NCBI RefSeq assembly: GCF_000225825.1
Contig: NZ_AGBX01000001.1
Span: 930,001 to 994,000, forward strand
DNA: 64,000 nucleotides
Source of the DNA: Brachybacterium squillarum M-6-3
GTDB taxonomy: Bacteria > Actinomycetota > Actinomycetes > Actinomycetales > Dermabacteraceae
Direction of reading: 5' to 3'
The position numbers were made by a program, and so were the translations under genes. The notes below the pieces were generated by a model. It saw only the letters and a list, made by a program, of their open reading frames with translations. It did not search any database and was not told the origin of the DNA. This document shows positions 8,153-32,602 of the stretch, piece by piece; positions within the stretch are counted from its first letter, which is position 1; the number at the start of each line of letters is the position of its first letter.

Positions 8153-9922
8153 TCACACCAAGCGGTACCTCGTTCCACGGTGCCCCTGGCCGCCGTCGAC
8201 CTCGACCAGGTCATTCTCGATCAACGCCAGCAGGGCGCGGCGCACCTGCATGTATGAGAGCCCGGTGGCTACCTGCAGATCAGCATGCAGGGCAGGACCT
8301 CCGGACAGGACGTGGTGGACGGTCGGCACGTTCTTCCCCATCCGACGCAGCGCCGAGGCATCCGGCGCGGGGTGAGGTGCGCTGTTCGAGGACCTTTCCG
8401 CGAGCGGCGTCGGTTCTGCGCTCTGGTCGGCTCCGGCCGTCGCATCCGGTGTCCGGAACGGCACGTCGGCGTCGATATCCGCATCGAGCAGCCCCCGCTG
8501 GACCAGCGCCTTCACCTGACTGCGGGCGTCCTCCCAGGTGAGCGGCGAGAATTCCGCGCGGAGACGATCGACGTCCCACGGATCGCCGCGCCACGCCTTC
8601 AGCAGCACGTGCTTCTGCAGGTGAGTGAGTTTCACCGTGCCGGAGACTCGGGTCAGATGCTCTTGCTCCTCCTCGGAGAACGCGGACCCGCGCCAGAACG
8701 TGGCCGTGAACCGCACGCCGTTGTCCGTGAGCGTGGGCCGCCTGAGGTCCGCGTCCTGGGCCCGCCGGAGCATGGTCAGCACCCCGCCTCCCTCGCCCTC
8801 GATCACACGGCTGCCGTCCGGCAGGCGCAAATGCGTGGACAGCTGATACAGACGCTGGTTGACGGCGGCGCGGCGCGGCACGGGGCTCTCGATCTCCGAC
8901 AGCGTCACCCCGCGCAGTCCCCCTGGACTGGTGATGACCAGAGCCTTCTCGGTCACGCGGATGTCGATCGAGCGTCCGGTCCCGAGAGTCTGCGGCCCGA
9001 GGTCGCGGTGCACGAGCGCGTTGGCCACGGCCTCGCGGACGGCGGCCAGCGGGATCTCGGGCTCGTCGCGCATGTGCCCGTCGTCTCCGTACACCTGGCG
9101 GGTCGTGAGGTTCTGCCGAACCCACGCCATGCACTCCTCCAGGAGATCCGTGACCGGCCCCTCGAAGTGCTGGAGATTCTGCGTGCGTGCCCTGCTCCCG
9201 TCGTCCGGGAGCTGCACGGCCGCCGTCACCTGCAGGGCCGGCAGCACCCCCTGCGGGTAGTTCCCCAGCGCGTAGAGGCCGGCCACCGTGCACTCGCCGG
9301 ACGCCGTGACCGCGCCGAGCTGCCGAATGATCTCGGTGTCGGCGAGATCCCGCAGTCGGCGAGTCCGTCGCCGAGCTCGTGAGACCACCTGGCTGACCAA
9401 CTCCACATCGAGGTCATCGGGGCCTGTCCCGGGCACGGGCTTGTCGTCGTAGAGCACGCTCTCGCTGTGATGAAGGGCCGCGACCTCGACCATCCGGAGA
9501 TCGGCAGGCCCCATCACGAAGTCCCCGTCGGCCTGGCGCAGGAAGGCCCTTCCCTCGAATCTGGCCGGCTTGAGGCTCGGAGCGACGGGTTGGACCAGGG
9601 CGGCGACGATCTGCACGCCGTCGATGTCGAAGGTCCTCACCTCGACGTAGGGGGAGGGATTCACGGCCTCCCGGGAGACGTTGACCAGCGCTTGCGCCAT
9701 GCCCGCGGGATCCGCCACACCGTTGAGGGAGAAGGCACCTGCCTCGTTGGCACCGAGGATCAGCAGCCCCTGATCGGGCATGTTGGCGAAGGCGCACAGC
9801 GTCTCGCCGATCTTCGCCGGGAGGCCGCCCGCGGCACGCTTGACCTCGACGTCCGTGCGATCGCCTCCGTGCACGCGCAGTTCATCGAGGACGGCGAGTA
9901 CGCGGGAGGCTGTCAACTCCAT
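8153..9922 (-). CDS. AlbA_2 / HATPase_c_4 / winged-helix regulator
   Basis: A 589-residue protein of the RecG-like putative transcriptional regulator group (COG2865). The N-terminal AlbA_2 (Schlafen AlbA-like) domain is around residues 20-130 (VEVKRAAGGLPAKIGETLCAFANM...GLLILGA). The middle HATPase_c_4-like region has REAVANALVHRDLG and LVITSPGGLRGV around 290-350. The C-terminal winged helix is at about 545-589 (LQVATGLSYMQVRRALLALIENDLVEV). It is likely a DNA-binding regulator with nucleotide-dependent control; related proteins occur in stress and defence contexts. It is a lone gene downstream of the CRISPR array on the same strand. Tandem repeats in its promoter suggest autoregulation. Confidence 0.8.
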   Translation of the reverse strand: MELTASRVLAVLDELRVHGGDRTDVEVKRAAGGLPAKIGETLCAFANMPDQGLLILGANEAGAFSLNGVADPAGMAQALVNVSREAVNPSPYVEVRTFDIDGVQIVAALVQPVAPSLKPARFEGRAFLRQADGDFVMGPADLRMVEVAALHHSESVLYDDKPVPGTGPDDLDVELVSQVVSRARRRTRRLRDLADTEIIRQLGAVTASGECTVAGLYALGNYPQGVLPALQVTAAVQLPDDGSRARTQNLQHFEGPVTDLLEECMAWVRQNLTTRQVYGDDGHMRDEPEIPLAAVREAVANALVHRDLGPQTLGTGRSIDIRVTEKALVITSPGGLRGVTLSEIESPVPRRAAVNQRLYQLSTHLRLPDGSRVIEGEGGGVLTMLRRAQDADLRRPTLTDNGVRFTATFWRGSAFSEEEQEHLTRVSGTVKLTHLQKHVLLKAWRGDPWDVDRLRAEFSPLTWEDARSQVKALVQRGLLDADIDADVPFRTPDATAGADQSAEPTPLAERSSNSAPHPAPDASALRRMGKNVPTVHHVLSGGPALHADLQVATGLSYMQVRRALLALIENDLVEVDGGQGHRGTRYRLV

Positions 9923-20391: not shown

Positions 20392-23244
20392 TCAGGCGGT
20401 CACGTCCCGCAGGCCCAACTCGTCGTCGTAACGGAGCGTTCGACCGGCCACGATGCAGGTCCCCTCGGTGTCGAGAGGCAGAGCCAGCTGTCCCCGGAGC
20501 AGACCGGAGTCCTGCCAACCGAGGGGGGTGGCCCGCTCTAGCTCGTCGAGTACCTGGTCCAGTCGGCTCTCGAAGCGCGTCAGGAACGCGGGCAGGCGCA
20601 CAGTTGCTGCGGCCAGCTCCCGTGCGGTCTCCCGGGGCGGTGCCGCATCCGGGCTCCACTCGACGTCGGCAGCACCTTCGGTCAGCGGCCGATAGCCCCC
20701 GTTCTCCCCGAGCCGGATAGGGATCACCTCGACGGTCGGGTCGCTGTCGCGCACCTGAGCCAGGCCCTGCGCCTCCCCGGGCAGGGTGTCCACGTCGGAA
20801 GTCTGGACAGTGAACAGGGCGTCGAGCGTGGAGCTCCTCGCCGGGGCGGGGATCCGGTACGTCGCGGCGCGGCGTCGAGCCCGGTCCTGTGCTGCGGCCC
20901 GCTCCTGCTGGGCGCGCTGCCAGGCGTCCTCCCAGGTCCCGGGGATCGGGGGATCGTCGCCGTAGACGCGGTGGACCAGCGGGGCGATGTCGTCCGGCCG
21001 CCGGAGTCCGCAGTGCAGCGGGCCCTCGCGGAGGACGGCGAGAGTGGCGAGCAGAATCGCCGGTTCGTACACCGCGGTAGCCCCGACGTCGAACTCGGGA
21101 GGGTCCTCTCGCAGTACCGCACGCAGCAGCACCTGGGGCTCCCGGAGACCCTCGGGACGGTCCTCTCGTGGGCGTGGGTGCCGATGCAGGCGACCGATCC
21201 GCTGGATCACCAGGTCGATCGGGGCCAGATCGGTGACCAGCAGGTCGACGTCGATGTCGAGGCTCTGCTCGGCCACCTGGGTGGCGACGACGACCCGGAG
21301 GTCGGGACGCCCAAAGCCGCGGTGGGCATCGGGCCCGAGCGCGCTACGGAGGGCGGATTCCTTCGTTACCCGCGTGGAGGCCAGGAATGACGCATGGTGC
21401 AGCTCCACGGCACTCGGGAAGGCCTCGCGCAGTCCGAGGTAGGCCTCCTGTGCCCGGCGCACCGTGTTGCAGATGACCAACACGCAGCCGCCGGCCGCGG
21501 TCTCCTCCCGGAGCCGGTCAACAAGGGCTGCGGTGCTGTCGGGCATGACCTCCACGCGCGCGTGCAGGTCGGTCTCCCGCAGGTCGACGGGGTACTCGGA
21601 GACTCCGTTGGTGCCGACGGCCGTAACGAGCGGATACGCAGTGGACAGTGCGGGGAGGTCACCGTCCTGCAGTTCCTGCCGATAGGCCTGGACCAGCTCG
21701 TGCTTAGTGCCCTGCGGGAGCGTCGCCGAGAGCAGCACCACCGGCACCCGATACCTTGCCAGCCAGGCGAGAGCCGTGGCCAGGTACTCAGACATGTAGG
21801 CGTCGTACGCGTGCACCTCGTCGATGATCACGACTTTGCCCGCGAGCCCTAGGTGCCGCAACATCGAGTGGCGGGCCTGCAGCGCCATGAACAGCACCTG
21901 ATCGACGGTTGCCACGCAGACGGTGGCCAGCACACCCTTCTTCCGCCCGGACAGCCACTGCGACGCGACGACCTCACCTCCGGTGGACAGCTCGGCGCCC
22001 CGCTCGTCGTCGGCGACGGAGCCGACGCCCCGGAAGCGAAGGTGCTCGAAGTCCTCGTTCAGCCGGTTCTTCGAATGGGCGAGGAACATGGAGGTGACCT
22101 GGGCGTCCCCGGCCTGCCGCATCCAGTTGAGGACACGGGTGAACAGCCCGTCTGCGGTCGCCATGGTCGGCGCGGCCACCAGCACCCCTCCACTGCCCGT
22201 TGCCGCCCCCAGAATCTCCGCCGCGGTGAGCGCCGCCTCGGTCTTGCCCTCCCCGGTCGGAGCCTCCACGACCATCAGGCCAGGGCCGTCGAGATCGGAG
22301 CAGGCCTGTGCCACCACCCGCTGGACCGGCCGGGCCCGATGCTCGGCGGGCCAGGTGAAGCGGTGTCGCAGATGGGAATCCAAGGCGTCGGCGCCCTGCG
22401 GCGGCGGGGCAGGAAGCCAGGGCGCGGTCAGGGCGACGGCCGCCATGCCCACCTGTGAACGGCAGTCCGCCTGCGCCGATGCCGTGCCGGAGCCGGTGAG
22501 CGGGAACGCCTCGGCGTTCGAGGCGATCCAGTCCGCCATGATCACCAGCCCGGTCAGCAGCGTCTGGTCCGAGGCGACCAGACGGGGCCCGAGCCGGGGC
22601 AGCACCGCCTCGATCCCGCTGAGCGCGGCGGCGTAGCCCAGCAGCTCCTCGCGGACCTGCCGCCACGGCTCGGCATCCTGCGCGATCGCCGTCTGCGCCG
22701 GGCCACGGAAAGCCGGGCGGGACGGTGACCCGTGATGGGCGTCGAGAACCCCCGCCAGAGCCTGCGCCGTCCCCGGGCGGACTTTCTGGGCGCGCAACCA
22801 GTGGCACGCGATCACCTGCGAGGCGAGCCCGTGGGGGAGGCGCTCCAGGAGCCTCTCCTGCACCGTCGGCGAGGTGGGGAGTCCTGCGCGGCGCAGCCGA
22901 TCGGTGAACTGCTCGAAGCCCGCGCGTGCCTCGAGCTGCGTCTGGAACGTGACGGTCGCCTTCCCGAGGTCGTGCGCGGCCGCCAGCCACGTGACCAGCA
23001 CACGAAGTTCCTGCTCGGCCAGGCCCGTGCCGCGCGAGAGCGTCTCCCGGACCGACCGGGGAACCCAGGAGTCCCACAACTGCCCAGCGACCTCTGCGGT
23101 GTCTTGCATGTGCTGCGGCAGGGCGAGCCAGGGTTCGTCCCCGGTCTCTCGGGCGCGGTCGTCGCCCGACTTCGCCCACAGCGCGCGCGCCGCGTCGGAG
23201 AGGTAGCCCGGGCTGCCCGTGATCGGTACGGTCGATCGTGCCAT
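20392..23244 (-). CDS. cas3: CRISPR-associated helicase-nuclease Cas3
   Basis: A 950-residue Cas3 with N-terminal HD nuclease and C-terminal SF2 helicase. HD residues: His45 (LPQHMQDTAEVAG) and His91-Asp92 (AAAHDLGKATVTFQTQLEA). Helicase: Walker A VEAPTGEGKTEAAL, DEVH box VIIDEVHAYDAYMSEYL, motif III LLSATLPQG, and motif VI around VIQRIGRLHRHPRP. Both active sites appear intact. It is recruited by Cascade to degrade target DNA. First gene of the cas operon; the preceding gene (23323) lies 78 bp upstream on the same strand with no visible terminator. Confidence 0.97.
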   Translation of the reverse strand: MARSTVPITGSPGYLSDAARALWAKSGDDRARETGDEPWLALPQHMQDTAEVAGQLWDSWVPRSVRETLSRGTGLAEQELRVLVTWLAAAHDLGKATVTFQTQLEARAGFEQFTDRLRRAGLPTSPTVQERLLERLPHGLASQVIACHWLRAQKVRPGTAQALAGVLDAHHGSPSRPAFRGPAQTAIAQDAEPWRQVREELLGYAAALSGIEAVLPRLGPRLVASDQTLLTGLVIMADWIASNAEAFPLTGSGTASAQADCRSQVGMAAVALTAPWLPAPPPQGADALDSHLRHRFTWPAEHRARPVQRVVAQACSDLDGPGLMVVEAPTGEGKTEAALTAAEILGAATGSGGVLVAAPTMATADGLFTRVLNWMRQAGDAQVTSMFLAHSKNRLNEDFEHLRFRGVGSVADDERGAELSTGGEVVASQWLSGRKKGVLATVCVATVDQVLFMALQARHSMLRHLGLAGKVVIIDEVHAYDAYMSEYLATALAWLARYRVPVVLLSATLPQGTKHELVQAYRQELQDGDLPALSTAYPLVTAVGTNGVSEYPVDLRETDLHARVEVMPDSTAALVDRLREETAAGGCVLVICNTVRRAQEAYLGLREAFPSAVELHHASFLASTRVTKESALRSALGPDAHRGFGRPDLRVVVATQVAEQSLDIDVDLLVTDLAPIDLVIQRIGRLHRHPRPREDRPEGLREPQVLLRAVLREDPPEFDVGATAVYEPAILLATLAVLREGPLHCGLRRPDDIAPLVHRVYGDDPPIPGTWEDAWQRAQQERAAAQDRARRRAATYRIPAPARSSTLDALFTVQTSDVDTLPGEAQGLAQVRDSDPTVEVIPIRLGENGGYRPLTEGAADVEWSPDAAPPRETARELAAATVRLPAFLTRFESRLDQVLDELERATPLGWQDSGLLRGQLALPLDTEGTCIVAGRTLRYDDELGLRDVTA

Positions 23245-23322
23245 GTCGTCTCGTCTCGCCGTCGAGGATGGGAATGCCCAGTCTCCCCGAGGGATACGAC
23301 GAACGACCGTGACGTCGCCGTT

Positions 23323-23904
23323 TTAAATCTCCGATCCCACGCCGTTGCCTGCGGCACCTCGGCAGTCGCACGTGGTCAGCAGGACCATCGCGGGGGAGTC
23401 CCGGTCCAGCAGCGACCGCAGCCGCTCGCCCGGGTCGGCGATCTCGCGGCGCTGCCAGGCCAGCAGCCGGGCGCTCTCGGCGCGGTCCAGCCGCACCACC
23501 GGGCGCAGGTGACCGCCGGCGCCGTGCTCCCGCGGGCGCGGCGCCGCCGGGGCGGTCTCGGCCCGGAAGGCCTGCCACCAGTGCTGCTCCCCGACGCCGC
23601 CGGGGGTGCCGGGCTCATCGGCCAGCTCGAGCGCCTGCACCAGGCGTCCGAACTCGCGGCGCATCCCCACCTGCGGCACGTACTGGGAGCTCAGCCAGCC
23701 CTGCAGGGTCGGCACGCGGATGTCGACCAGCCGCTCCAGCCGACGGTAGGACAGCCCGCGCTCCACGCGGGCCGCGTCCACGGCGGCGACGACCCCCTCG
23801 CGCCCGCGGCGGCGCGCCTCCTCGAAGCGTCGACGGCGCGGGGACAGCGCGCGGGTCGGCGCGGAGGGTGCGGCGCCGATCGGTGACGGGGCGGGGGTGG
23901 GCAT
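23323..23904 (-). CDS. HTH protein resembling a truncated STAND N-terminus (copy A)
   Basis: 193 residues; start ATG 23904 follows GGGAGCTCC. Residues 25-95 form a helix-turn-helix-like segment (GLSYRRLERLVDIRVPTLQGWLSS, then PQVGMRREFGRLVQALEL), followed by GGVGEQHWWQAF at 102-113. The rest (131-181) runs parallel to the segment before the P-loop of the STAND protein at 28065-31919, but where that has VTGRSGVGKSS this has LLTTCDCRGAAGNG. About two thirds identical to copy B (27237-27827). Probably DNA-binding or an adaptor; no known function. Upstream it has two inverted repeats; downstream lies cas3. Confidence 0.75.
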   Translation of the reverse strand: MPTPAPSPIGAAPSAPTRALSPRRRRFEEARRRGREGVVAAVDAARVERGLSYRRLERLVDIRVPTLQGWLSSQYVPQVGMRREFGRLVQALELADEPGTPGGVGEQHWWQAFRAETAPAAPRPREHGAGGHLRPVVRLDRAESARLLAWQRREIADPGERLRSLLDRDSPAMVLLTTCDCRGAAGNGVGSEI

Positions 23905-24012
23905 CGGAGCTCCCGGGAGGACGTGGGCGACGGAGGCCGGGACGGCGCGCCGCCCCCACGGGCTCCCGGACGCGGCGCGGGACGCCGGACGGGCACGGGA
24001 CGGCCTGTGGCT

Positions 24013-24063
24013 TCCGACCGTAGTGTCGGACCCCCGCGCCCGGTACTCCCGAGTTTCCGTACC
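24013..24063 (-). promoter_or_regulatory. Paired inverted repeats upstream of copy A
   Basis: TCCGAC (24013-24018) and GTCGGA (24025-24030) form a perfect 6-bp inverted repeat with a 6-base gap; GGTAC (24042-24046) and GTACC (24059-24063) form another with a 12-base gap. The first contains the 8-mer GTGTCGGA (24023-24030), also found upstream of the response regulator and copy B. Candidate operators; function inferred from position 110-160 bp upstream of the start. Confidence 0.45.
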
Positions 24064-24107
24064 CCCTTTTCCCCGGCCGCCCCGGCCGCGCCGGGCGCGG
24101 TGCAGGG

Positions 24108-25082
24108 TCAGCCGTGGTGCAGGGTGACGTCCTGCGAGGCCGAGACCAGGGTCATCCGAAAGGCCCCCGCCCGCCCGGAGAAGCGCACGGTGATCCGGTC
24201 GTCCGCGGTCGTGCGGAGCACCGGGGCGAGCCGTTCGGCGAGCGAGACCCGGGCCTCGGCGGCCGCCGCGGACTCCGGGGTGTCGTCCAGCAGCAGCACC
24301 TCCCGCCCCGCGCGTCGCGCCTCCTCCGCGGCGTCGGCCAGCGCGGGGCACCGCGCCAGGGCCGGCACCCGGATGCCGTCGCGCAGGGTCGCCTCCAGCA
24401 CGCGCGCCTCCCGCCGCTGCTCGGCCCCGAGCGGCCCCGACGCGGCGATGGTCCCGAGCACCGGCACCACCCGGGCCAGCACGTCCTCCGCGACCCGCAG
24501 CTCGGCCCGGTCCGCCTCCGTGGCGGCGCTCGCGGCCACCTCGCGACGCCGGGCGGCCTCGCGGACCCGGTCGGTCCGCGCCCCCAGCAGCCCCAGCACG
24601 ATCGCGACCACCGACGCCGCGGCGAGCAGCCCCACATGGGTGACCGACAGGGCGAGAGCGACCCCCGCGCCGGCCCCGTCGCGCCAGGCCCACAGCATCG
24701 TCATGACCAGCATCAGAGCCATGCCGATCCAGGCGGCGCCCACGCGTCCGCGCACCGTCAGCCCGATCAGCACCATCGTCACCGCCCCGAGGTGCCAGGT
24801 CGCGTACCCCATCGGCGGGTCCAGGGGCAACGGCGCGGAGACGACCAGGATCATCGCCAAGACCAGGGCCAGCACCGCGAGGGTGCGGGGCGCCGAGCAG
24901 CGGGGCCGCGCATCCAGGAGCAGCAGGAGGAGCGCGCCGCCGAGGCAGCCCAGACCCAGCACGGCGGGCACGGGCCCGAGGCCGGGCGGCCCCGGCAGGC
25001 CGAGCACGGCGTTGCCCAGCACGAACAGCGCGGCCAGGAGCCATGCCGCGGGCAGGCGACGGAAGGAGGCCAGGGGGCGCAT
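24108..25082 (-). CDS. Membrane protein with degenerate kinase-like cytoplasmic part
   Basis: A 324-residue protein with about six hydrophobic segments in residues 10-165 (AAWLLAALFVLGNAVLGLPG onward), then a helical cytoplasmic part from about 170. The order 'membrane segments, coiled helix, alpha/beta end' parallels the histidine kinase at 25090, but no H-box, N-box (NxxxHA) or GxGxG loop is present; only LLDDTPE and a beta-rich end (RITVRFSGRAGAFRMTLVS) remain. It starts 7 bp after the kinase stop and is surely in the same operon. It may be a non-catalytic partner that senses signal with the kinase. Confidence 0.6.
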   Translation of the reverse strand: MRPLASFRRLPAAWLLAALFVLGNAVLGLPGPPGLGPVPAVLGLGCLGGALLLLLLDARPRCSAPRTLAVLALVLAMILVVSAPLPLDPPMGYATWHLGAVTMVLIGLTVRGRVGAAWIGMALMLVMTMLWAWRDGAGAGVALALSVTHVGLLAAASVVAIVLGLLGARTDRVREAARRREVAASAATEADRAELRVAEDVLARVVPVLGTIAASGPLGAEQRREARVLEATLRDGIRVPALARCPALADAAEEARRAGREVLLLDDTPESAAAAEARVSLAERLAPVLRTTADDRITVRFSGRAGAFRMTLVSASQDVTLHHG

Positions 25083-25089
25083 CGTCGGC

Positions 25090-26307
25090 TCAGCCCTCCG
25101 GCGTCCAGGTGAGGGTGACCGTCGTGCCGCGGTCCGGCGCGGAGCGCACCTCCGCGCCCCCGCCGGGCAGGCGCCGCATCCCCGCCAGCACGCTCTCGGC
25201 CATGCCGAGGCGGTCCGCGCCGACCCGCGCGGGGTCGAAGCCGCGGCCGTCGTCCTCCAGCGCCAGACGCAGCTCGTCGCGGTCCGCCCGGACCCGCAGC
25301 CGACGGCTCGTGCCAGGACCGGCGTGGCGCAGGCTGTTGCGCAGGGCCTCGCCGAGGGCGGCCAGCACGGCGGTGCGCACCGCCGCGGGGACGACGAGAT
25401 GGTCGTGCAGCTCGGCCTCCATCGTCGTCCCGGGATCGATGTCGGCCACCGTCTCCCGCACCCGCGCCAGCAGCTCCCGCGCGGGCACCCCCGGGCCGTC
25501 CCCCGTGGTCGGCGGGGACGCCGGGGAGGCCAGGTTCAGGGTGATCAGCGCGGAGCGGGCGCGACGGCGGGCGACGTCGCGCAGCGCCGGGTCCTCCCGG
25601 TCGGCGAGGTTCAGCACGCTGAGCACCTCGTCGTGCAGGAACTGGCGCGACCAGCGCCGGTCGTCGCGGGCCACCTGCCGGTGCGCCGCCTCCCGCAGCT
25701 CGGCGCGGGCCGTGGCGGTGGCCGCGTCCACCGTGCGGATCGCCTGCTGCGTCAGCATCACCAGGCCCACGATCACGGAGGACAGCACCACGCTCCAGGC
25801 GCCGTCGCGCAGCGCCGTGGGCCCGAGTCCCGGCGGGCCCGCCAGCACCCGGTCCAGGGTGATGGCCAGGCCGTTCAGCACCGACAGCGCCCAGGCGGTG
25901 CGCCCGTGCCCGGCGATCGCCATCGCCACCGCGGAGGAGGTGACCGCGAGGATCACCCACGGCGGGTCCAGGGAGACCAGCGGGGTGCGCAGTCCCAGCG
26001 GCAGCGTCCACAGCGTGAGCGTGCCAAGCACCCCGGCGACGGCCAGGACGCGCCGCAGCGCGCCCACTGGCGCCACCGGGGCGGCCAGGAGCACCCCGAG
26101 CGGGAGCAGATAGGTGACGGCCAGCGCCGCCATCGTCCAGGGGAGGTGGAAGTAGGGGAGCTGGCCCGGGATCAGCGGCACGTAGATCGAGGCGACGCCG
26201 AGCCCGCCCACGGCGTAGGCGACGGACAGGGCGCGGGTCGCGGTGGGAGCCAGCGGCCCGGGGTCGAGGTCGCGTCGGGGATCCGCCCGGCCGCCGGAAC
26301 GGGTCAC
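25090..26307 (-). CDS. Sensor histidine kinase, NarL/DesK type
   Basis: A 405-residue membrane kinase. Five to six hydrophobic segments lie in residues 28-190. The dimerisation/phosphoacceptor helix has RQFLHDEVLSVLN with His225. The ATPase domain has N-box LGEALRNSLRHAG, G1 box EDDGRGFDPARVGADRLGMAE and G2 GTTVTLTW at the end. The start is GTG 26307, overlapping the response regulator stop (GTGA). It presumably phosphorylates the adjacent LuxR-type regulator. The ligand is unknown; no large extracellular domain is present, so the signal is likely within or near the membrane. Confidence 0.85.
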   Translation of the reverse strand: MTRSGGRADPRRDLDPGPLAPTATRALSVAYAVGGLGVASIYVPLIPGQLPYFHLPWTMAALAVTYLLPLGVLLAAPVAPVGALRRVLAVAGVLGTLTLWTLPLGLRTPLVSLDPPWVILAVTSSAVAMAIAGHGRTAWALSVLNGLAITLDRVLAGPPGLGPTALRDGAWSVVLSSVIVGLVMLTQQAIRTVDAATATARAELREAAHRQVARDDRRWSRQFLHDEVLSVLNLADREDPALRDVARRRARSALITLNLASPASPPTTGDGPGVPARELLARVRETVADIDPGTTMEAELHDHLVVPAAVRTAVLAALGEALRNSLRHAGPGTSRRLRVRADRDELRLALEDDGRGFDPARVGADRLGMAESVLAGMRRLPGGGAEVRSAPDRGTTVTLTWTPEG

Positions 26308-26945
26308 GGCAGACCGGGCTCGCCGAGCACGCCGTCTTCCAGGGCCCGTTTGTACAGGTCGACCTTGGTGCCGCTGTCCCTCCCCACCCGGGTGTACTTC
26401 GAGCGGATCTCCTTCACGTACTTGTCCACCGTGTGCACCGAGATGCCGAGGCGGTGGGCCACCGAGACGGTGGTGTGCCCGTCGGCGTACAGCGCCAGCA
26501 CCTCCCGCTCCCGCGGGCTGAGCCCGGCGTCGCCGATCCGCTCGTCGGTGTCGATCGAGGCGGCGACCTCCGCGGAGAGCTGCGCGCGGCCCTCCAGCAC
26601 CGCCCGCAGCGCCTCCACCAGGTCGCGGGTCGGCGCCGACTTGCGCACCACGGCCTCCGCGCCGCCGCGCACCGCGGACTGCAGCAGGTACCGGCTCTCC
26701 CCAGAGGTGTAGACGACGGTGGCGATGCCCGCCGCGGCCAGGGCCTGCAGGTTCTCCTCGGGCGAGGAGCCGACCTGCAGGCGCAGGTCCAGGATCGCGA
26801 CCTCGGGCCGCTCGTCCTGGGCCAGCAGCTCCGCGACCGACGCGACCAGGCCTTGGAAGCGGGCGCCCGGCACCGCGGCCACCACCTCCGCCAGCACGGT
26901 GGACATGAAGGGGTGGTCGTCGATCGCCCCGATCGCGCGTGCCAT
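26304..26945 (-). CDS. LuxR-family response regulator
   Basis: About 213 residues: receiver domain with acidic pair Asp9-Asp10 (AIDDHPF), phosphoacceptor Asp53 (VAILDLRL), switch Thr/Ser in VVYTSGES and Lys in VVRKSAP; then a LuxR/NarL DNA-binding domain LSPREREVLALYADGHTTVSVAHRLGISVHTVDKYVKEI. ATG 26945 is preferred because GAGGGGG lies about nine bases upstream; an in-frame GTG at 26954 is the alternative. First gene of the three-gene signalling operon. Target genes are not known; nearby copies A and B and the STAND gene are natural candidates. Confidence 0.88.
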   Translation of the reverse strand: MARAIGAIDDHPFMSTVLAEVVAAVPGARFQGLVASVAELLAQDERPEVAILDLRLQVGSSPEENLQALAAAGIATVVYTSGESRYLLQSAVRGGAEAVVRKSAPTRDLVEALRAVLEGRAQLSAEVAASIDTDERIGDAGLSPREREVLALYADGHTTVSVAHRLGISVHTVDKYVKEIRSKYTRVGRDSGTKVDLYKRALEDGVLGEPGLP

Positions 26946-27236
26946 GTCCGTCACCCCCTCGAGGCCCCGGCGCCGCTCCCGTGCGACGTCGGCGATGCCC
27001 GCGTCATCCCTGTGTGTCGGATCCTAGGCGCGCCCGGACCGCAGGGACAGGACCTCGGTGGAGTCCTCCCGCACGCATTGAGCCGAGCGGGGTCGGCGGG
27101 GTCTTCGCCGGCGGCCACGATCTGGGCGCTGGTCATCGGGTACGACCTGCTCGTGCTGCTCGCGGTGGCGGCGGGCTGCATCGTGCTCTGGCGCATCACG
27201 CGGTCATCCGGGCCGTCGGCGCGCCCGGCCCGAGCC
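26946..27236. other. Regulatory gap upstream of the response regulator
   Basis: 291 bp. On the minus strand CTAGGAT (-10-like) is followed by CCGACACACAGG, part of the shared 8-mer TCCGACAC (27014-27021 on plus). On the plus strand around 27117-27205 a frame encodes one hydrophobic stretch (ALVIGYDLLVLLAVAAGC) followed by WRITRSS, without a good start codon or ribosome binding site; it may be a remnant of a small membrane protein or chance. Confidence 0.4.
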
Positions 27237-27827
27237 TCAGCCCTCGTGGGGCGGAGCGCCGTCCTGCTCGGAGCAGTCGCAGGTGGTGAGGACCAGGACG
27301 GCACCGTTCTCCGGTTCCATCAGACGGCGCAGCCGCGCCCCCGGATCGGGGATCTCGTGGCGCTGCCAGGCCAGCAGTCGGGTGCTGTCCCGATGGTCCA
27401 GTCGCACCAGCGAACGCAGGTGATCCCGCGCGGCGGGGGCGGGCCGTGCGGGTCCCGGAGCCCCCGCGGGGCGCTCGTCGCGGAAGGCCTGCCACCAGTG
27501 CTGCTCGCCCACCCCGCCCGGCGTCGCGGGACCGTCGGCCAGCTCCAGCGCCCGGACCAGCCTCCCGAAGTCCTGGCGCATGCCGAGCTGCGGGATGTAG
27601 TGGCCGGTGAGCCAGCCCTGCAGGGTCGGCACCCGGATGTCGACCAGCCGTTCGAGCTTGCGGTAGGAGAGGCCCAGCTCGATCCGTGCCTCGCCCATGG
27701 TCGCGACGATCCCGGCCCTGCCCTCCCGCAGCGCCTCCTCGAAGCGGAGCCGACGGGGCGTGGGGGAGACGGGCAGGAGCGGGTCCTCCCCGCTGGGGCC
27801 GGTGGGGGGCAGGTCGAGCGCGGTCAT
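27237..27827 (-). CDS. HTH protein resembling a truncated STAND N-terminus (copy B)
   Basis: 196 residues; start ATG 27827 after GGGAGTTCCC. It is a close paralogue of copy A: LSYRKLERLVDIRVPTLQGW at 53-71, GMRQDFGRLVRALELADG at 82-99, GGVGEQHWWQAF at 104-115, then LLAWQRHEIPDPGARLRRL and the C-terminal VLVLTTCDCSEQDG. Conservation of LTTCDC between A and B, while the linker after WWQAF varies, suggests the end is functional, perhaps metal binding or a disulfide switch (inference). It lies between the STAND gene and the two-component operon, all on the same strand. Confidence 0.75.
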   Translation of the reverse strand: MTALDLPPTGPSGEDPLLPVSPTPRRLRFEEALREGRAGIVATMGEARIELGLSYRKLERLVDIRVPTLQGWLTGHYIPQLGMRQDFGRLVRALELADGPATPGGVGEQHWWQAFRDERPAGAPGPARPAPAARDHLRSLVRLDHRDSTRLLAWQRHEIPDPGARLRRLMEPENGAVLVLTTCDCSEQDGAPPHEG

Positions 27828-27968
27828 GGGAACTCCCGGGGTCGGGCCGAGGGGGCGTGGACGGAGACGGCCGTCCGGCGGGGTTCCCTCCCGACCGCCC
27901 GAGGCCGTCCCCGTCACGCTAGGGCGCGGCCGGCCGTGCAGGGCCCCGGGCCACGGATCCGGATCGGG

Positions 27969-28038
27969 TCCGAACGGGTCGCGCGGGGGACCGCGGGGGT
28001 GTCGGAGCCCGGCACCGTGTTCGGTCCCGTTCGGAACG
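27969..28038 (-). promoter_or_regulatory. Inverted repeat cluster upstream of copy B
   Basis: TCCGAACGGG (27969-27978) and CCCGTTCGGA (28026-28035) are perfect 10-bp inverted copies 47 bp apart; the second is part of the palindrome CGTTCGGAACG (28028-28038). Between them lies the shared 8-mer GTGTCGGA (27999-28006). CGGAACG at 28032-28038 is the complement of the CGTTCCG repeated upstream of the STAND gene. Probable operator region; the binding protein is unknown. Confidence 0.5.
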
Positions 28039-28064
28039 CCCCCGCACCGGAGCAATCGTGCAGC

Positions 28065-31000
28065 TCAGGAGCACATCGGCGCGTCATCCGGGAGGGACGG
28101 CGCGAGCTCCTGCCCCTCCTCGACGGTCAGCGGTTCGCCGACCTCGGAGCAGATCTGGCTGCGGGCCTCCGCGGGATCGAGGGTCCACCACCACAGATGC
28201 CCCGAGTAGGTGGAGGCCACCATCCGGGTGCCGTCGTCGAGGAACGTGGCGTCGGTGATCTCGCTGCGGATCGGCCCCTGCAGCCGCAGCTGCGAGCCGC
28301 TGATCGCGGTGCCGTCCTCGCTGATGTCGCGCACGTCCACGTGGCTGACGGCGGAGATCGCCATGCGGTCGCCCTCCGCCGTGAAGGACAGGCTGATCGG
28401 AGTGTCCGTCATCCCGGTGACGGTGCTCAGCCGGCTCGGCGCGGTCGGATCCGAGATGTCCATGATCCCGACCTCCAGGCTCTCGGTCGCATAGCCGAGC
28501 TGGCCGGGATGGCCCGGCCGCATCTCGATCCAGGTGGGGCGCTGCCCGCCCATGTCGATGCGGGCCAGCTCCTCGTCGGCCTCGAGATCCCAGACCAGCA
28601 GGTCCCAGGTGCCGTCCTCCACCACCAGCGTGTCCCGGTCGCGGAAGGTCATGGTGTTCCCTGCCAGCACCGGGATCCGGGCGAGCTCGGTGAGCCGCAC
28701 ATCTGCTCCGCCGGCGCCCGGGTCCTCGGCGACGTCGTAGACGACGACCTCGTCCGAGTCCTGGTCGCCGATGGCGAGCCGTGTCCCGTCGGCGGAGAAC
28801 GTCGCATTGATCAGGAGGGCACCCGGGAGCGGGTCCACCCGGGTGGGGTCGCTGAGGCCCGTCTCGCCGACGCGCGAGACCTTCAGCCCCTCCCGGCCGC
28901 CGTAGGCGACGAACCGACCGTCGCTGGTCACGGCCAGCGCGTACCGGGTCTCATCGGTGGCCTCCGGCACCTCGAGGGGGACGACCGTGCCGTCCTCGCC
29001 GAGCCGATCCACCTGCAGCCGTCCGTCGCCGGAGCCCAGGGACCCGATCGCCGTGCGGCCGTGGGTGTCGGCGACCACCTCGAAGACGCGGCCGCGCTCC
29101 TCGGGCAGCAGGAACGTGTCATCGGGCCAGATGGTGATGGTGCCGTCGGCGGTGTTCGTGACCAGCGCCCCGTCGGCCTCCACCAGGGCGTCCGGCAGGG
29201 AGGGCAGCACCTGCACGTCGCTCGCCTCCCCCTCGAGGGTGAACAGGCGCAGGGTGTGGTCCGAGGCGACGGCGGCCAGCCGCCCGTCCTCGAGGAAGGC
29301 GGCGTCGTTGACCCAGGACTCGAAGCCCTCGGCGGTGGCGGTGACCTCCAGCTCACCGTCCTGCACGGTGCCGATCTCGACGGTGTGGTCACGGGTGGAG
29401 GCTGCGAAGCGGTCCCCCTCGGGGGAGAGCGAGACGTCGTTGAGCAGGGGCAGGGTGAGAGCGGGGCCCCAGGCCGTCTCGCCGAGGGGGTCCTCGAGCA
29501 GGGCGAGGGTGCCGTCCTCGCGGGAGGCGAGGACCGCCGCGCCGCGGGCGTCCAGCCCCAGCACCGGGGACGCCTCCCCGGACGCCTCCTGCGGCGGACC
29601 CTCGACAGAATCCAGGGCGACGGTCCGGTCGTCCTCGATCCGGAGACGGTGCAGGTGCCCGTCGCTGCCACCGAACAGGGCCCCGGAGCCGTCCGGCAGC
29701 ACCACGGCCGCGTCCGTCGCCAGGGCCGTCTCCACGCATCCCAGCTCGACCGGCGCGGCCGTCACGTCCCAGACGCAGCCCTGTCCGCGCATCCCGGTGG
29801 CGTTCTCCCCGGCGACGGCGAGCAGGCGGCGATCCCCGGCCTCCACCAGGCTGAGCGCGTAGATGTCGGTGACCGCGGCGTCCATGCTGTGCAGCTCCCG
29901 GCCGGTGGCGGGGTCCAGCAGCCGCACGATGCCCTGCGCACCGCCGTGGGCGAGCAGCCCGTCGACGGCGGCCAGGCCCGCCGGGCCGGGGGCGGTGGTG
30001 ATCCGCCGGGGCAGTGTGCCCGCGGTCAGGGAGAACAGGCGGGAGCGGGAGGTCGGGTTGTCGTCGATGCCGTGGGCGGCGATCGCGAGCTGCGCGGCCT
30101 CCGCGGGCATGGTCTCGGCCACCACCTCGGAGCGGTTGGCGATCTCCCCGGCCAGGGCCGTGCGCTCGGCCGAGCGCAGGGTGAGAGCGCTGAACGCCGC
30201 GGAGCCCGCGAGCACGAGGGCGATCACGGCGAGCGCGGAGGCCAGCACGCTGACGGTGCGGAAGCGGCGCGAGCTGCGACGCAGCGCCGTGTTCTCCGCC
30301 TCCGCCCGCCGCAGGCGCTCCTCCCGGGCCTCGCGTACGGCGGCGAGGAAGTCCCTTTCCAGGTGGGAGAGGTCCTCGTCCGGCAGGTCGGCATCCTCCG
30401 GGCGCTCCGCTGCCAGCACCAGGGCGGAGTCCGGTGCGGCGGCCAGCCCCTCCGGGCGTCCCGCCTCGTCCCAGAAAGTCGCGTACCGGGTGAGCATGCG
30501 CCGGGAGGCCGACCAGTCCTGCGCGGAGGCGATCCACTCGGCCAGCCGCGGCCAGGTGGTCAGCAGCAGGTCGTGGCCGATGGTGATGGTCTCGCGGTCC
30601 CGCTGCAGGAGGTGGGCGGCCAGGAAGGTCCGCAGCACCTCCTCGCGGGCGGGATCCTCCGGCACCGGGACGGTGCCCGCGGTGAGACGACGACGGGCCG
30701 GCTGGGAGTCGTCCAGGTGGAGCATCTCCCGCAGCGTCGGCCAGCAGGCCTCCCGGGCGGCGGGGGAGAGCTGCGCGTAGGCGGCCTCCGCGGCACGTTC
30801 CACGGAGCGGGCGACGCCGCCGGAGCGCTCGTAGTCCTCCAGGGTGATGCGGACGGCGTCCTCCCGCTGCTGCCAGAGCGTGCGCATCGTCTGGGAGAGC
30901 AGCGGCAGCGCCCCGGAGAGGCCCTCGGAGCCGCCCGCCTCGGCTCCCGCGTCCCGCAGGATCACCTCCGCCACGCCCGGGTCGAGGGCGATGCCCTGCG

Positions 31001-31919
31001 CCGCGGTGGGCTCCTGCAGGATCTCGAGGGCGTCCTCCCGGGTGATCGGGCCGATCACCACGTGCGCCGTCTCCAGGGCGGCCCGCAGTGCGGGGACATC
31101 GGTGGCGGGGGCGAGGGCGTCGGCCCGCAGCACCAGGATCAGCACCGTGCCGGAGGCCCCGGTCGCCGCCGCCGCGGCGATCCGGGCGAGCGTCCGCTCC
31201 CGTTCCGGCTCGGAACCGGACCAGAGCGCCTCCGCCTGGTCGAGCACGAGGACCCGCGGGCCGGTGCCCGCGGCCAGCTCGGCGAGGGCCTCCTCGACCT
31301 CCGGGCCCGGCTGCACCCGACGGGCCGGGATGCCCTCCCGCTCGTCGGCGACGCGGCGCACCGCAGCCGCCACCAGTGACGACTTGCCGACACCGGATCG
31401 TCCCGTGACCAGCAGCAGCGGGGAGCCGCGCCCGTCCAGGCGACGGCGCAGCCGGGCAGCCAGCTCGGCGACCTGGGCGTGCCGGCCCGGGAACAGGTGG
31501 GCGTCGCCGAGCTCGTAGGGGCGCATCCCGGGGTACGGCGGGGACTGCTCCGGGTCCGGGGCGGTCACGGGGGCCGGTGCGGAGCGGATCGCCCGCCACC
31601 AGTCCTCCCCGGTGACACCGCCGCGGGTGCCCTCGGGGTCCACCAGGTCCAGGGCCTCGACCAGGCGGAGGAAGTCGGCACGCATGCCGACCTGCGGGGC
31701 GGAGCGCCCCGTCAGCCAGCCCTGCAGGGTGGTGATCGGGACGCCCACCCGGCCGCTGAGGCGGCGGTAGGCGAGGCCGCCGTCGTCCTTCGCGGCCGTC
31801 AGGGCCGCGGCGACGCCCGCGCGGCCCTGCACCGCGGCCAGCCGCCAGCGTCGGTACCGCTCGGTAATGCCGTCGGCGTCCTCGCCGTTCGGAACGGGCT
31901 GCCGGGGCTCGGACGGCAT
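28065..31919 (-). CDS. HTH - nSTAND1 NTPase - beta-propeller protein
   Basis: 1284 residues. N-terminal HTH-like domain at about 25-112 (YRRLSGRVGVPITTLQGWLTG...WWRAIR). PPYPGMRPYELGDAHLFPGR at 127-146 opens an nSTAND1 ATPase domain; Walker A GRSGVGKSS at 173-181 and Walker B-like RVLVLDQAEALW follow. A single hydrophobic segment near 605-635 is followed by an extended WD40-like propeller (repeated LA.D..G..LA pattern) to the C-terminus. STAND proteins are nucleotide-dependent switches; members act in regulation and in anti-phage defence. No nuclease or other effector domain is obvious. ATG has GGGAG upstream. Position on the same strand upstream of the two-component and cas genes is suggestive. 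Confidence 0.85.
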   Translation of the reverse strand: MPSEPRQPVPNGEDADGITERYRRWRLAAVQGRAGVAAALTAAKDDGGLAYRRLSGRVGVPITTLQGWLTGRSAPQVGMRADFLRLVEALDLVDPEGTRGGVTGEDWWRAIRSAPAPVTAPDPEQSPPYPGMRPYELGDAHLFPGRHAQVAELAARLRRRLDGRGSPLLLVTGRSGVGKSSLVAAAVRRVADEREGIPARRVQPGPEVEEALAELAAGTGPRVLVLDQAEALWSGSEPERERTLARIAAAAATGASGTVLILVLRADALAPATDVPALRAALETAHVVIGPITREDALEILQEPTAAQGIALDPGVAEVILRDAGAEAGGSEGLSGALPLLSQTMRTLWQQREDAVRITLEDYERSGGVARSVERAAEAAYAQLSPAAREACWPTLREMLHLDDSQPARRRLTAGTVPVPEDPAREEVLRTFLAAHLLQRDRETITIGHDLLLTTWPRLAEWIASAQDWSASRRMLTRYATFWDEAGRPEGLAAAPDSALVLAAERPEDADLPDEDLSHLERDFLAAVREAREERLRRAEAENTALRRSSRRFRTVSVLASALAVIALVLAGSAAFSALTLRSAERTALAGEIANRSEVVAETMPAEAAQLAIAAHGIDDNPTSRSRLFSLTAGTLPRRITTAPGPAGLAAVDGLLAHGGAQGIVRLLDPATGRELHSMDAAVTDIYALSLVEAGDRRLLAVAGENATGMRGQGCVWDVTAAPVELGCVETALATDAAVVLPDGSGALFGGSDGHLHRLRIEDDRTVALDSVEGPPQEASGEASPVLGLDARGAAVLASREDGTLALLEDPLGETAWGPALTLPLLNDVSLSPEGDRFAASTRDHTVEIGTVQDGELEVTATAEGFESWVNDAAFLEDGRLAAVASDHTLRLFTLEGEASDVQVLPSLPDALVEADGALVTNTADGTITIWPDDTFLLPEERGRVFEVVADTHGRTAIGSLGSGDGRLQVDRLGEDGTVVPLEVPEATDETRYALAVTSDGRFVAYGGREGLKVSRVGETGLSDPTRVDPLPGALLINATFSADGTRLAIGDQDSDEVVVYDVAEDPGAGGADVRLTELARIPVLAGNTMTFRDRDTLVVEDGTWDLLVWDLEADEELARIDMGGQRPTWIEMRPGHPGQLGYATESLEVGIMDISDPTAPSRLSTVTGMTDTPISLSFTAEGDRMAISAVSHVDVRDISEDGTAISGSQLRLQGPIRSEITDATFLDDGTRMVASTYSGHLWWWTLDPAEARSQICSEVGEPLTVEEGQELAPSLPDDAPMCS

Positions 31920-32059
31920 GGGATCACTCCCGCGGTCGGGACGGTCAGGACGGGGGATCGCCGCCCGTCCGCGCGCTCGGGGTTCCCGAACAAGGACACA
32001 CGGTGATGACCTGCACGATCATCATGCACCGGGGGAAACCGGGAATCTGCGACAGATGT

Positions 32060-32087
32060 CGTTCCGTGACCGTTCCGAAGCGTTCCG
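32060..32087 (-). promoter_or_regulatory. Three phased direct repeats upstream of the STAND gene
   Basis: CGTTCCG occurs at 32060-32066, 32071-32077 and 32081-32087, start-to-start 11 and 10 bp, i.e. on one face of the helix, 140-170 bp upstream of the STAND start. The same heptamer (as CGGAACG) occurs in the copy B upstream region. Helical phasing suggests cooperative binding of a regulator. Also compatible with a role for the glutathione peroxidase 3' end, which starts 15 bp away. Confidence 0.45.
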
Positions 32088-32101
32088 ACCCTGGCCGGAG
32101 C

Positions 32102-32602
32102 TCAGCCGCGTGCCCCGAGCGCCTCCTCGACGGGCTCGGCCAGCGTCCCCGGCTCCACCTCGGAGGCATAGCGGGCGCGGACGGTGCCGTCGCGGCCGAG
32201 CAGGAACTTGGTGAAGTTCCAGCCGATGGGGGCGGCCTCGATCGGGCCGCCTACGCCCTCGTGCGCGCCGGTCAGCCACTGGTACAGCGGGTGGGCGCCC
32301 TCGCCGTTGACCTCGACTTTGGAGAACATCGGGAAGTCCACGCCGAAGCTGGTGGAGCAGAACTCGGCGATCTCGGCGTCGGTGCCGGGCTCCTGGTGGT
32401 TGAACTGGTCGCAGGGGAAGCCCAGCACGATCAGTCCCTCCTCGCGGTAGCGGGACTGCAGCTCCTGCAGCCCGTCGTACTGGGGGGTGAAGCCGCACTT
32501 GCTGGCGGTGTTCACGATCAGCACCACCTGGCCGACGTAGCGGCCCAGGTCGGTGTCCGAGCCGTCGATCGCGGTGGCGGTGAAGTCGGCGAGAGTCGTC
32601 AT
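32102..32602 (-). CDS. Glutathione peroxidase family protein
   Basis: A 166-residue thioredoxin-fold peroxidase. The start is ATG 32602 (MTTLADFTATAIDG); the longer open frame upstream is part of a broken SDR gene. Motifs: NTASKCGFTPQYDGLQ with the peroxidatic Cys, LGFPCDQFNHQEPG with Gln and a second Cys, and WNFTKFLLGRDG with the Trp/Asn of the active tetrad. Cys instead of selenocysteine is normal for bacteria. Actinobacteria lack glutathione, so thioredoxin or mycothiol-linked reductants are the likely electron donors (family knowledge). Reduces hydrogen peroxide and lipid peroxides in the cytoplasm. Confidence 0.93.
   Translation of the reverse strand: MTTLADFTATAIDGSDTDLGRYVGQVVLIVNTASKCGFTPQYDGLQELQSRYREEGLIVLGFPCDQFNHQEPGTDAEIAEFCSTSFGVDFPMFSKVEVNGEGAHPLYQWLTGAHEGVGGPIEAAPIGWNFTKFLLGRDGTVRARYASEVEPGTLAEPVEEALGARG

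Follow-up and report, generated by a model that had tools for sequence, protein, structure and literature searches.

A probable membrane-tethered STAND regulator with HTH-only relatives adjoins a probably separate, putative two-component trio upstream of a type I-E cas locus

Upstream of cas3 in Brachybacterium squillarum M-6-3, six genes follow one another on the minus strand, which raises the question whether they act as one block tied to the neighbouring cas genes or are plain neighbours. Within the window, the 64,000-nucleotide stretch of DNA that was analysed, they run from a STAND regulator gene (28065-31919, 1284 amino acids (aa)) through copy B (27237-27827, 196 aa), a LuxR-type response regulator (26304-26954), a membrane histidine kinase (25090-26307) and a second membrane protein (24108-25082) to copy A (23323-23904, 193 aa), which is followed on the same strand by cas3 (23244-20392); the starts of the two copies, and with them the lengths given, were set by ATG codons. 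The first-pass annotation had described six minus-strand genes that end 78 bp before cas3, and all coordinates were confirmed.

The spacing of the genes is uneven. Tight packing is confined to the regulator, kinase and membrane protein (hereafter the trio), which are joined by a 4-bp overlap and then a 7-bp gap. Elsewhere, 237 bp separate STAND from copy B, 282 bp copy B from the response regulator, 203 bp the membrane protein from copy A and 78 bp copy A from cas3. These gaps suggest at least four units, namely STAND, copy B, the trio and copy A, and by them the six genes do not look like a single transcription unit. No sigma-70-type promoters or terminators were found in 23000-32200, and Rfam gave no match at gathering scores within the window. 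The edges of the block are, furthermore, arbitrary, since the same-strand run continues beyond both ends, with GPx, NhaP, LTD and ABC genes above and cas genes below. An SDR-like fragment, whose frame appears broken, lies on the same strand (33190-32640) ahead of the glutathione-peroxidase-like gene, which starts near 32600.

The trio has recognizable parts. The response regulator matches GerE in Pfam (E 9.7e-10), its receiver domain reaching 18.6 bits, below the Pfam cut-off of 30.2, and the kinase matches HATPase_c (E 8.2e-9) and has a candidate phospho-acceptor histidine, read by eye, in a QFLHDEV stretch. For the membrane protein no Pfam match was obtained at E 1 or better; in its predicted model (pLDDT 74), the cytoplasmic part looks kinase-like. 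At E 1e-15 the family of this protein is found in 79 of the 396 genomes and 17 of the 110 genera of an order-wide sample. The protein is present in 3 of 38 genomes of the genus, and full-length relatives of the kinase (43%) occur only in G012 and G019, some kinase match being found in 28 of the 38. We read 22 foreign trio loci, comprising 20 of the 79 matching genomes, all among the best scoring, and the two from G019 and G012. Regulator, kinase and membrane protein are collinear in every one of them, and at E 1e-8 neither STAND nor the copies nor cas3 were detected in the DNA examined around the trio (14 kb as a rule, 7.6 kb in L123, 20 kb in L038 and L039). Judged from these comparisons, the trio is a common, self-standing three-gene module, probably a two-component sensing system. 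In G019 its flanking ABC and NhaP genes share 79% and 64% identity with their counterparts immediately above STAND in the window; because the trio adjoins them there without STAND or cas3, it may be the old resident of the site. The G012 trio is at a different place. As a side observation, an uncharacterised membrane protein stands third after regulator and kinase in L111-L130, L038 and L039, a conserved three-gene module of Actinomycetota.

STAND genes, too, are found without the rest. Four foreign STAND loci were read, from B. muris (L037), Microbacterium halotolerans (L043) and two genomes, G686 (L079) and G767 (L080), drawn from 3 of 366 Microbacterium genomes; none of the other five block genes lies beside STAND in any of the four, and apart from a generic ABC ATPase and two matches between pairs of loci, the STAND loci have no neighbour family in common. 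Co-occurrence was thus examined directly, and with the trio alone in 22 of 22 foreign loci and STAND alone in four of four, the conserved synteny that the annotation had envisaged was not found, nor do the gaps and these separate occurrences fit its view of the six genes as one block with a two-component system. A single six-gene block with a signal-gated role in regulation or defence, formed recently in this lineage, would account for the adjacency of all six genes on one strand, the bracketing of the trio by copies A and B and the position of copy A 78 bp before cas3, but it is very improbable given the independence of its parts in the 22 trio loci and the four STAND loci, the large internal gaps, the lack of the operator-like element (see below) before the regulator and cas3, and the G019 locus, in which the trio has the same ABC and NhaP neighbours but neither STAND nor cas3. 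Very probably, two unrelated gene sets adjoin here, next to the type I-E cas locus: the STAND gene with two HTH-only relatives, and the trio.

Proteins that combine an HTH, an nSTAND1 domain and a propeller are common in Actinomycetota, and as far as we know few of their targets have been described. The present STAND protein comprises an XRE-like HTH (residues about 20-115), an nSTAND1 NTPase (128-490; Pfam E 8.7e-69, 233.4 bits against a curated cut-off of 27.1), a hydrophobic segment found by hydropathy (about 558-576) and, C-terminal to nSTAND1, WD40-type Pfam matches from which a beta-propeller is assigned by WD40/propeller models (about 650-1284), in agreement with the architecture originally proposed for the gene at 31919. 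The stretches GRSGVGKSS and LVLDQAE are present in the protein, and we take them to be intact Walker A and Walker B motifs. In all 17 family members, the region that links the ATPase to the propeller shows a strong hydrophobic peak by a simple hydropathy window; the protein is therefore probably membrane-tethered, and its propeller may lie outside the cell. With residues 1-500 as query (8000 candidates scored, the best 120 of 285 proteins listed), the protein itself was recovered at 99%, 16 relatives at 47-54% and the next listed protein at 33%; among the matches listed, the named members of the subfamily belong to Brachybacterium, Microbacterium and Myceligenerans, and the relatives are annotated as nSTAND1 NTPases. 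Within the genus, G017 has a full-length relative (52%), and G016 a broken one, present as fragments with one internal stop on contig C242 (L033, L035). A plasmid collection, in which close records may be left out, gave no match to STAND at 1e-30, and a literature search found no paper on a STAND NTPase in Brachybacterium.

Copies A and B each consist of a STAND-family HTH followed by a 60-residue tail that ends in TTCDC, and they are without the propeller and most of the ATPase. The kinship claimed at the outset, one N-terminal architecture in three of the six genes, proved to be beyond chance: a profile of 17 STAND HTH regions gives copy B 124 bits, and the HTHs of the copies reach 120-134 bits against STAND HTH profiles. 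In copy B the HTH covers residues 22-118, and the TLQGWL motif kept in the copies sits in its third helix (66-74) in a predicted model (pLDDT 76) that has an XRE-like fold and aligns to XRE structures; HTH_3 matches at E 5.4e-4 and 20.4 bits, under the Pfam cut-off of 23, and a Foldseek search with the model gave no match at E 0.001 or better. The two copies are 67% identical over 136 aa. In an HTH tree they form one clade (support 100/99) that falls among the STAND HTHs and not beside the neighbouring STAND, and copy A is 48% identical to the HTH of this neighbour and up to 56% to other STAND HTHs. The only cysteines in either copy are the two of TTCDC.

The copies are rare. Across the 38 genus genomes, copy B as query retrieved only the three HTH genes of its own genome and the STAND of G017, and in the order-wide sample it matched 4 of 396 genomes, namely its own, G017 and two weakly (E 3e-5 and 3e-4); since the two weak matches lie in frames of 1242 and 741 aa, the sample holds no further small copy. 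Among 5.8 billion proteins, the copy family amounts to three clusters, one 97% and one 74% identical to copy B and the third copy A itself, so by these searches the copies are a private family with few members. They are too rare for long retention to be shown. No match to copy B was found at 1e-3 in a phage collection, from which close records may again be missing, and a comparison of the DNA upstream of copies A and B gave no convincing homology. A weak STAND match at 23149-23853 (residues 16-242, 37%, one TAA) continues beyond the stop of copy A in the direction of cas3; as the DNA is GC-rich, this extension may be due to chance.

Their structure bears on whether the copies are decaying truncated STAND genes that have lost ATPase and propeller, copy B retaining its upstream element as a leftover. 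This explanation, which we consider unlikely, draws on the small number of clusters and on the tail, which can be aligned gap-free, over 40 columns, with the part of nSTAND1 that runs from its start to the P-loop (hhalign E 0.018, with 2 of 100 column shuffles scoring as high) and has the same predicted strand-helix-helix-strand order, although the alignment behind that prediction included STAND rows. Against it, both copies are open over their full length with a coding-like third-position GC of 0.91-0.93, and they share their endpoint and TTCDC at only about 60% identity, with RLLAWQR and LTTCDC conserved in the tail core. Additionally, the dN/dS between them (NG86) is 0.31 in the HTH and 0.76 in the tail, so the copies look constrained, the tail lying weakly below 1, and direct scoring of the tail against the nSTAND1 HMM is not significant. 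Descent of the tail from the start of nSTAND1 was accordingly kept as suggestive only, the profile comparison being weak, and neither Pfam nor the tail scores revealed an nSTAND1 P-loop NTPase domain in either copy. An idea that the TTCDC tail relates to sortases was dropped, as three tails gave no Pfam match at E 10.

What links the copies to STAND beyond kinship is a candidate operator. A tandem GTTCGGAA-N2-GTTCGGAA precedes STAND in each of the five loci that were read, the window and four foreign ones; in the window, L037 and L043 it was first noticed by eye, as TTCGGAA repeats with 10-bp spacing ahead of STAND. A matrix built from the four foreign sites locates it before STAND as GGTCGGAACGCTTCGGAAC (32072..32090, minus strand, 153-171 bp before the start codon) and in the gap between STAND and copy B as GTTCGGTCCCGTTCGGAAC (28019..28037, plus strand, 192-210 bp before copy B), with a second, weaker element in the copy B leader (27957..27975, minus strand; 13.6 bits by matrix, 15/19 by motif). 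Among the 127,964 positions of the window, this matrix gives its highest score to the copy B promoter, with the STAND promoter in second and third place on the two strands; the gaps that contain these two promoters account for 0.65% of the window. When the foreign sites are left out in turn, each still comes top within its own 17-20 kb locus, a rank that is partly built in because the element was first seen by eye. A motif from two foreign sites scored 16/19 before copy B, 15/19 before STAND and 15/19 again before copy B, and in 30 random windows, searched with a prefilter that skipped some positions, its best score was 13 in 2, 14 in 18 and 15 in 10, never 16. Furthermore, in each of two new loci the consensus singled out one best site ahead of STAND (14/19 and 16/19).

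The element is restricted within the block. In front of the three trio genes, copy A and cas3, no site scores above the 10-12 of 18 (11/18 for copy A) that is background. Genome-wide, matches with at most 3 mismatches number 13, 11 and 21 in STAND-bearing and 11, 7, 5 and 8 in STAND-less genomes (13 in the own genome against 11 in G012) and do not separate the two groups. Matches with 0 or 1 mismatch occur only before STAND or copy B, the pattern having been derived from those sites: its M was chosen with copy B in view, and with A instead copy B has 2 mismatches, as does one other site in the own genome. Another element pattern was likewise drawn up after the own sites had been seen. Ten weak matches in the own genome lie outside the block, six of them in coding-like frames by GC position and four not. 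We regard it as likely that the element is the operator of the STAND/copy HTH family; STAND and copy B appear to share it, so that copy B seems to stand under the control site of STAND. The view that the genes are unlikely to be together by accident thus holds for one part of the block: the HTH kinship and the element common to STAND and copy B make it probable for STAND and the copies, whereas the two-component genes occur separately and copy A is without the element.

These data are best explained by a model, to which we assign a probability of roughly 0.55, in which an autoregulated membrane-tethered sensor-regulator has HTH satellites that act on the same operator, with the unrelated trio alongside. 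A ligand would be sensed by the beta-propeller, and NTP-driven oligomerisation of the ATPase part would align the HTHs on the repeats spaced by 10 bp, through which STAND would act on its own promoter and on that of copy B. Copies B and A, without a P-loop, would be unable to switch and might occupy these repeats in soluble form, as competitors or repressors that set the threshold, while the trio would sense something else and have its own targets. Counting against the model are the partly built-in ranks of the element, its failure to separate genomes with and without STAND, the lack of it before copy A, the divergent HTH of the neighbouring STAND, the rarity of the copies and the tail dN/dS only weakly below 1. 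We propose tentatively, at slightly less than even odds, that the satellites counteract or adjust STAND and are not remnants in decay.

In a further variant, the HTH of the STAND family would have become detached and been duplicated, and the resulting satellites without a P-loop would have taken over the ancestral operator, with copy A placed to relay the signal into cas3. It would explain why the copy B element best matches foreign STAND operators, why the recognition helix is kept in the copies and why the HTH of the neighbouring STAND seems to be drifting. This HTH, that of the STAND beside the copies, is the divergent one and a long branch, and its branch length of 0.93, on 96 columns, against 0.59 for the ATPase and 0.65 for the propeller, is suggestive of faster divergence than in the rest of the protein. 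We consider this variant quite improbable. If it were true, the threshold of a sensor would be set by mini-versions of the sensor itself, and the paired Cys-Asp-Cys end would be a possible redox or metal input.

How, then, do the cas genes relate to this arrangement? Downstream of the block, all seven cas proteins searched were matched (Cas3e, Cas8e, Cas11e, Cas7e, Cas5e, Cas6 and Cas1e), and the locus is of type I-E. Signal-gated control of defence had been suggested, and upstream of cas3 only background-level sites of the operator-like element were found; the 78-bp gap after copy A leaves read-through possible. An independent defence module had been the other suggestion. In PADLOC the best match of STAND is mad8 (E 4e-4, 18 bits), over 84 residues round the P-loop, with no known defence family matched, and the CasR/CARF matches of the regulator cover its HTH only. 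An Avs-type anti-phage sensor, with the HTH as death effector or autoregulator, would share the STAND architecture with its C-terminal sensor and would suit the nearby cas locus, but it is improbable, since STAND has no effector domain other than the HTH, its PADLOC matches do not exceed 18 bits, and in the four foreign loci it is solitary among differing neighbour genes. A role in CRISPR control or defence is unsupported for either gene set. Elsewhere in the window, a gene beside the CRISPR array (8153-9922) partially matches a long pAgo model (E 6e-12, 42 bits), probably generically.

Taken together, the sensor-regulator model has consequences of its own. A conserved operator offers a direct handle for gel shifts, reporter assays and the search for other targets, and the satellites constitute a natural experiment in how a STAND switch is tuned; the locus also illustrates that genes forming one same-strand block next to a cas locus may simply be neighbours. 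Literature searches, in the records that they listed, gave no case of HTH-only satellites sharing an operator with a STAND regulator and, to our knowledge, neither the STAND operator nor such satellites nor the control of both together has been described, the domain order being known.

That order recurs in the nSTAND1 (PF20703) proteins of many Actinomycetota that start with an HTH and end in WD40 repeats, with a strong nSTAND1 match, whereas the present subfamily is set apart, among the matches listed, by an HTH of its own and by the conserved element in front of it. Bacterial STAND proteins are described as NTP-dependent transcriptional regulators (PMC7159879). In contrast to XRE/lambda-repressor-like HTH proteins (HigA, P22 c2, SinR, CapH), the copies are predicted to carry an extra front helix and a 60-residue tail. 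MalT and related STAND transcription regulators form the comparison class for the full-length protein: they likewise carry a sensor, an NTPase and a DNA-binding domain on a single polypeptide, as predicted here from sequence, but the present STAND differs from MalT in its N-terminal HTH, probable membrane segment and beta-propeller sensor, and the only targets proposed for it are itself and copy B. The kinase and regulator of the trio, finally, find their best NCBIfam matches in the MacS-family kinase and in MctR- and MadR-type regulators, at scores far under the curated cut-offs (49.9 of 300 and 62.7 of 300 bits, respectively), and unlike those systems the trio always has a third, membrane protein gene in the loci read.
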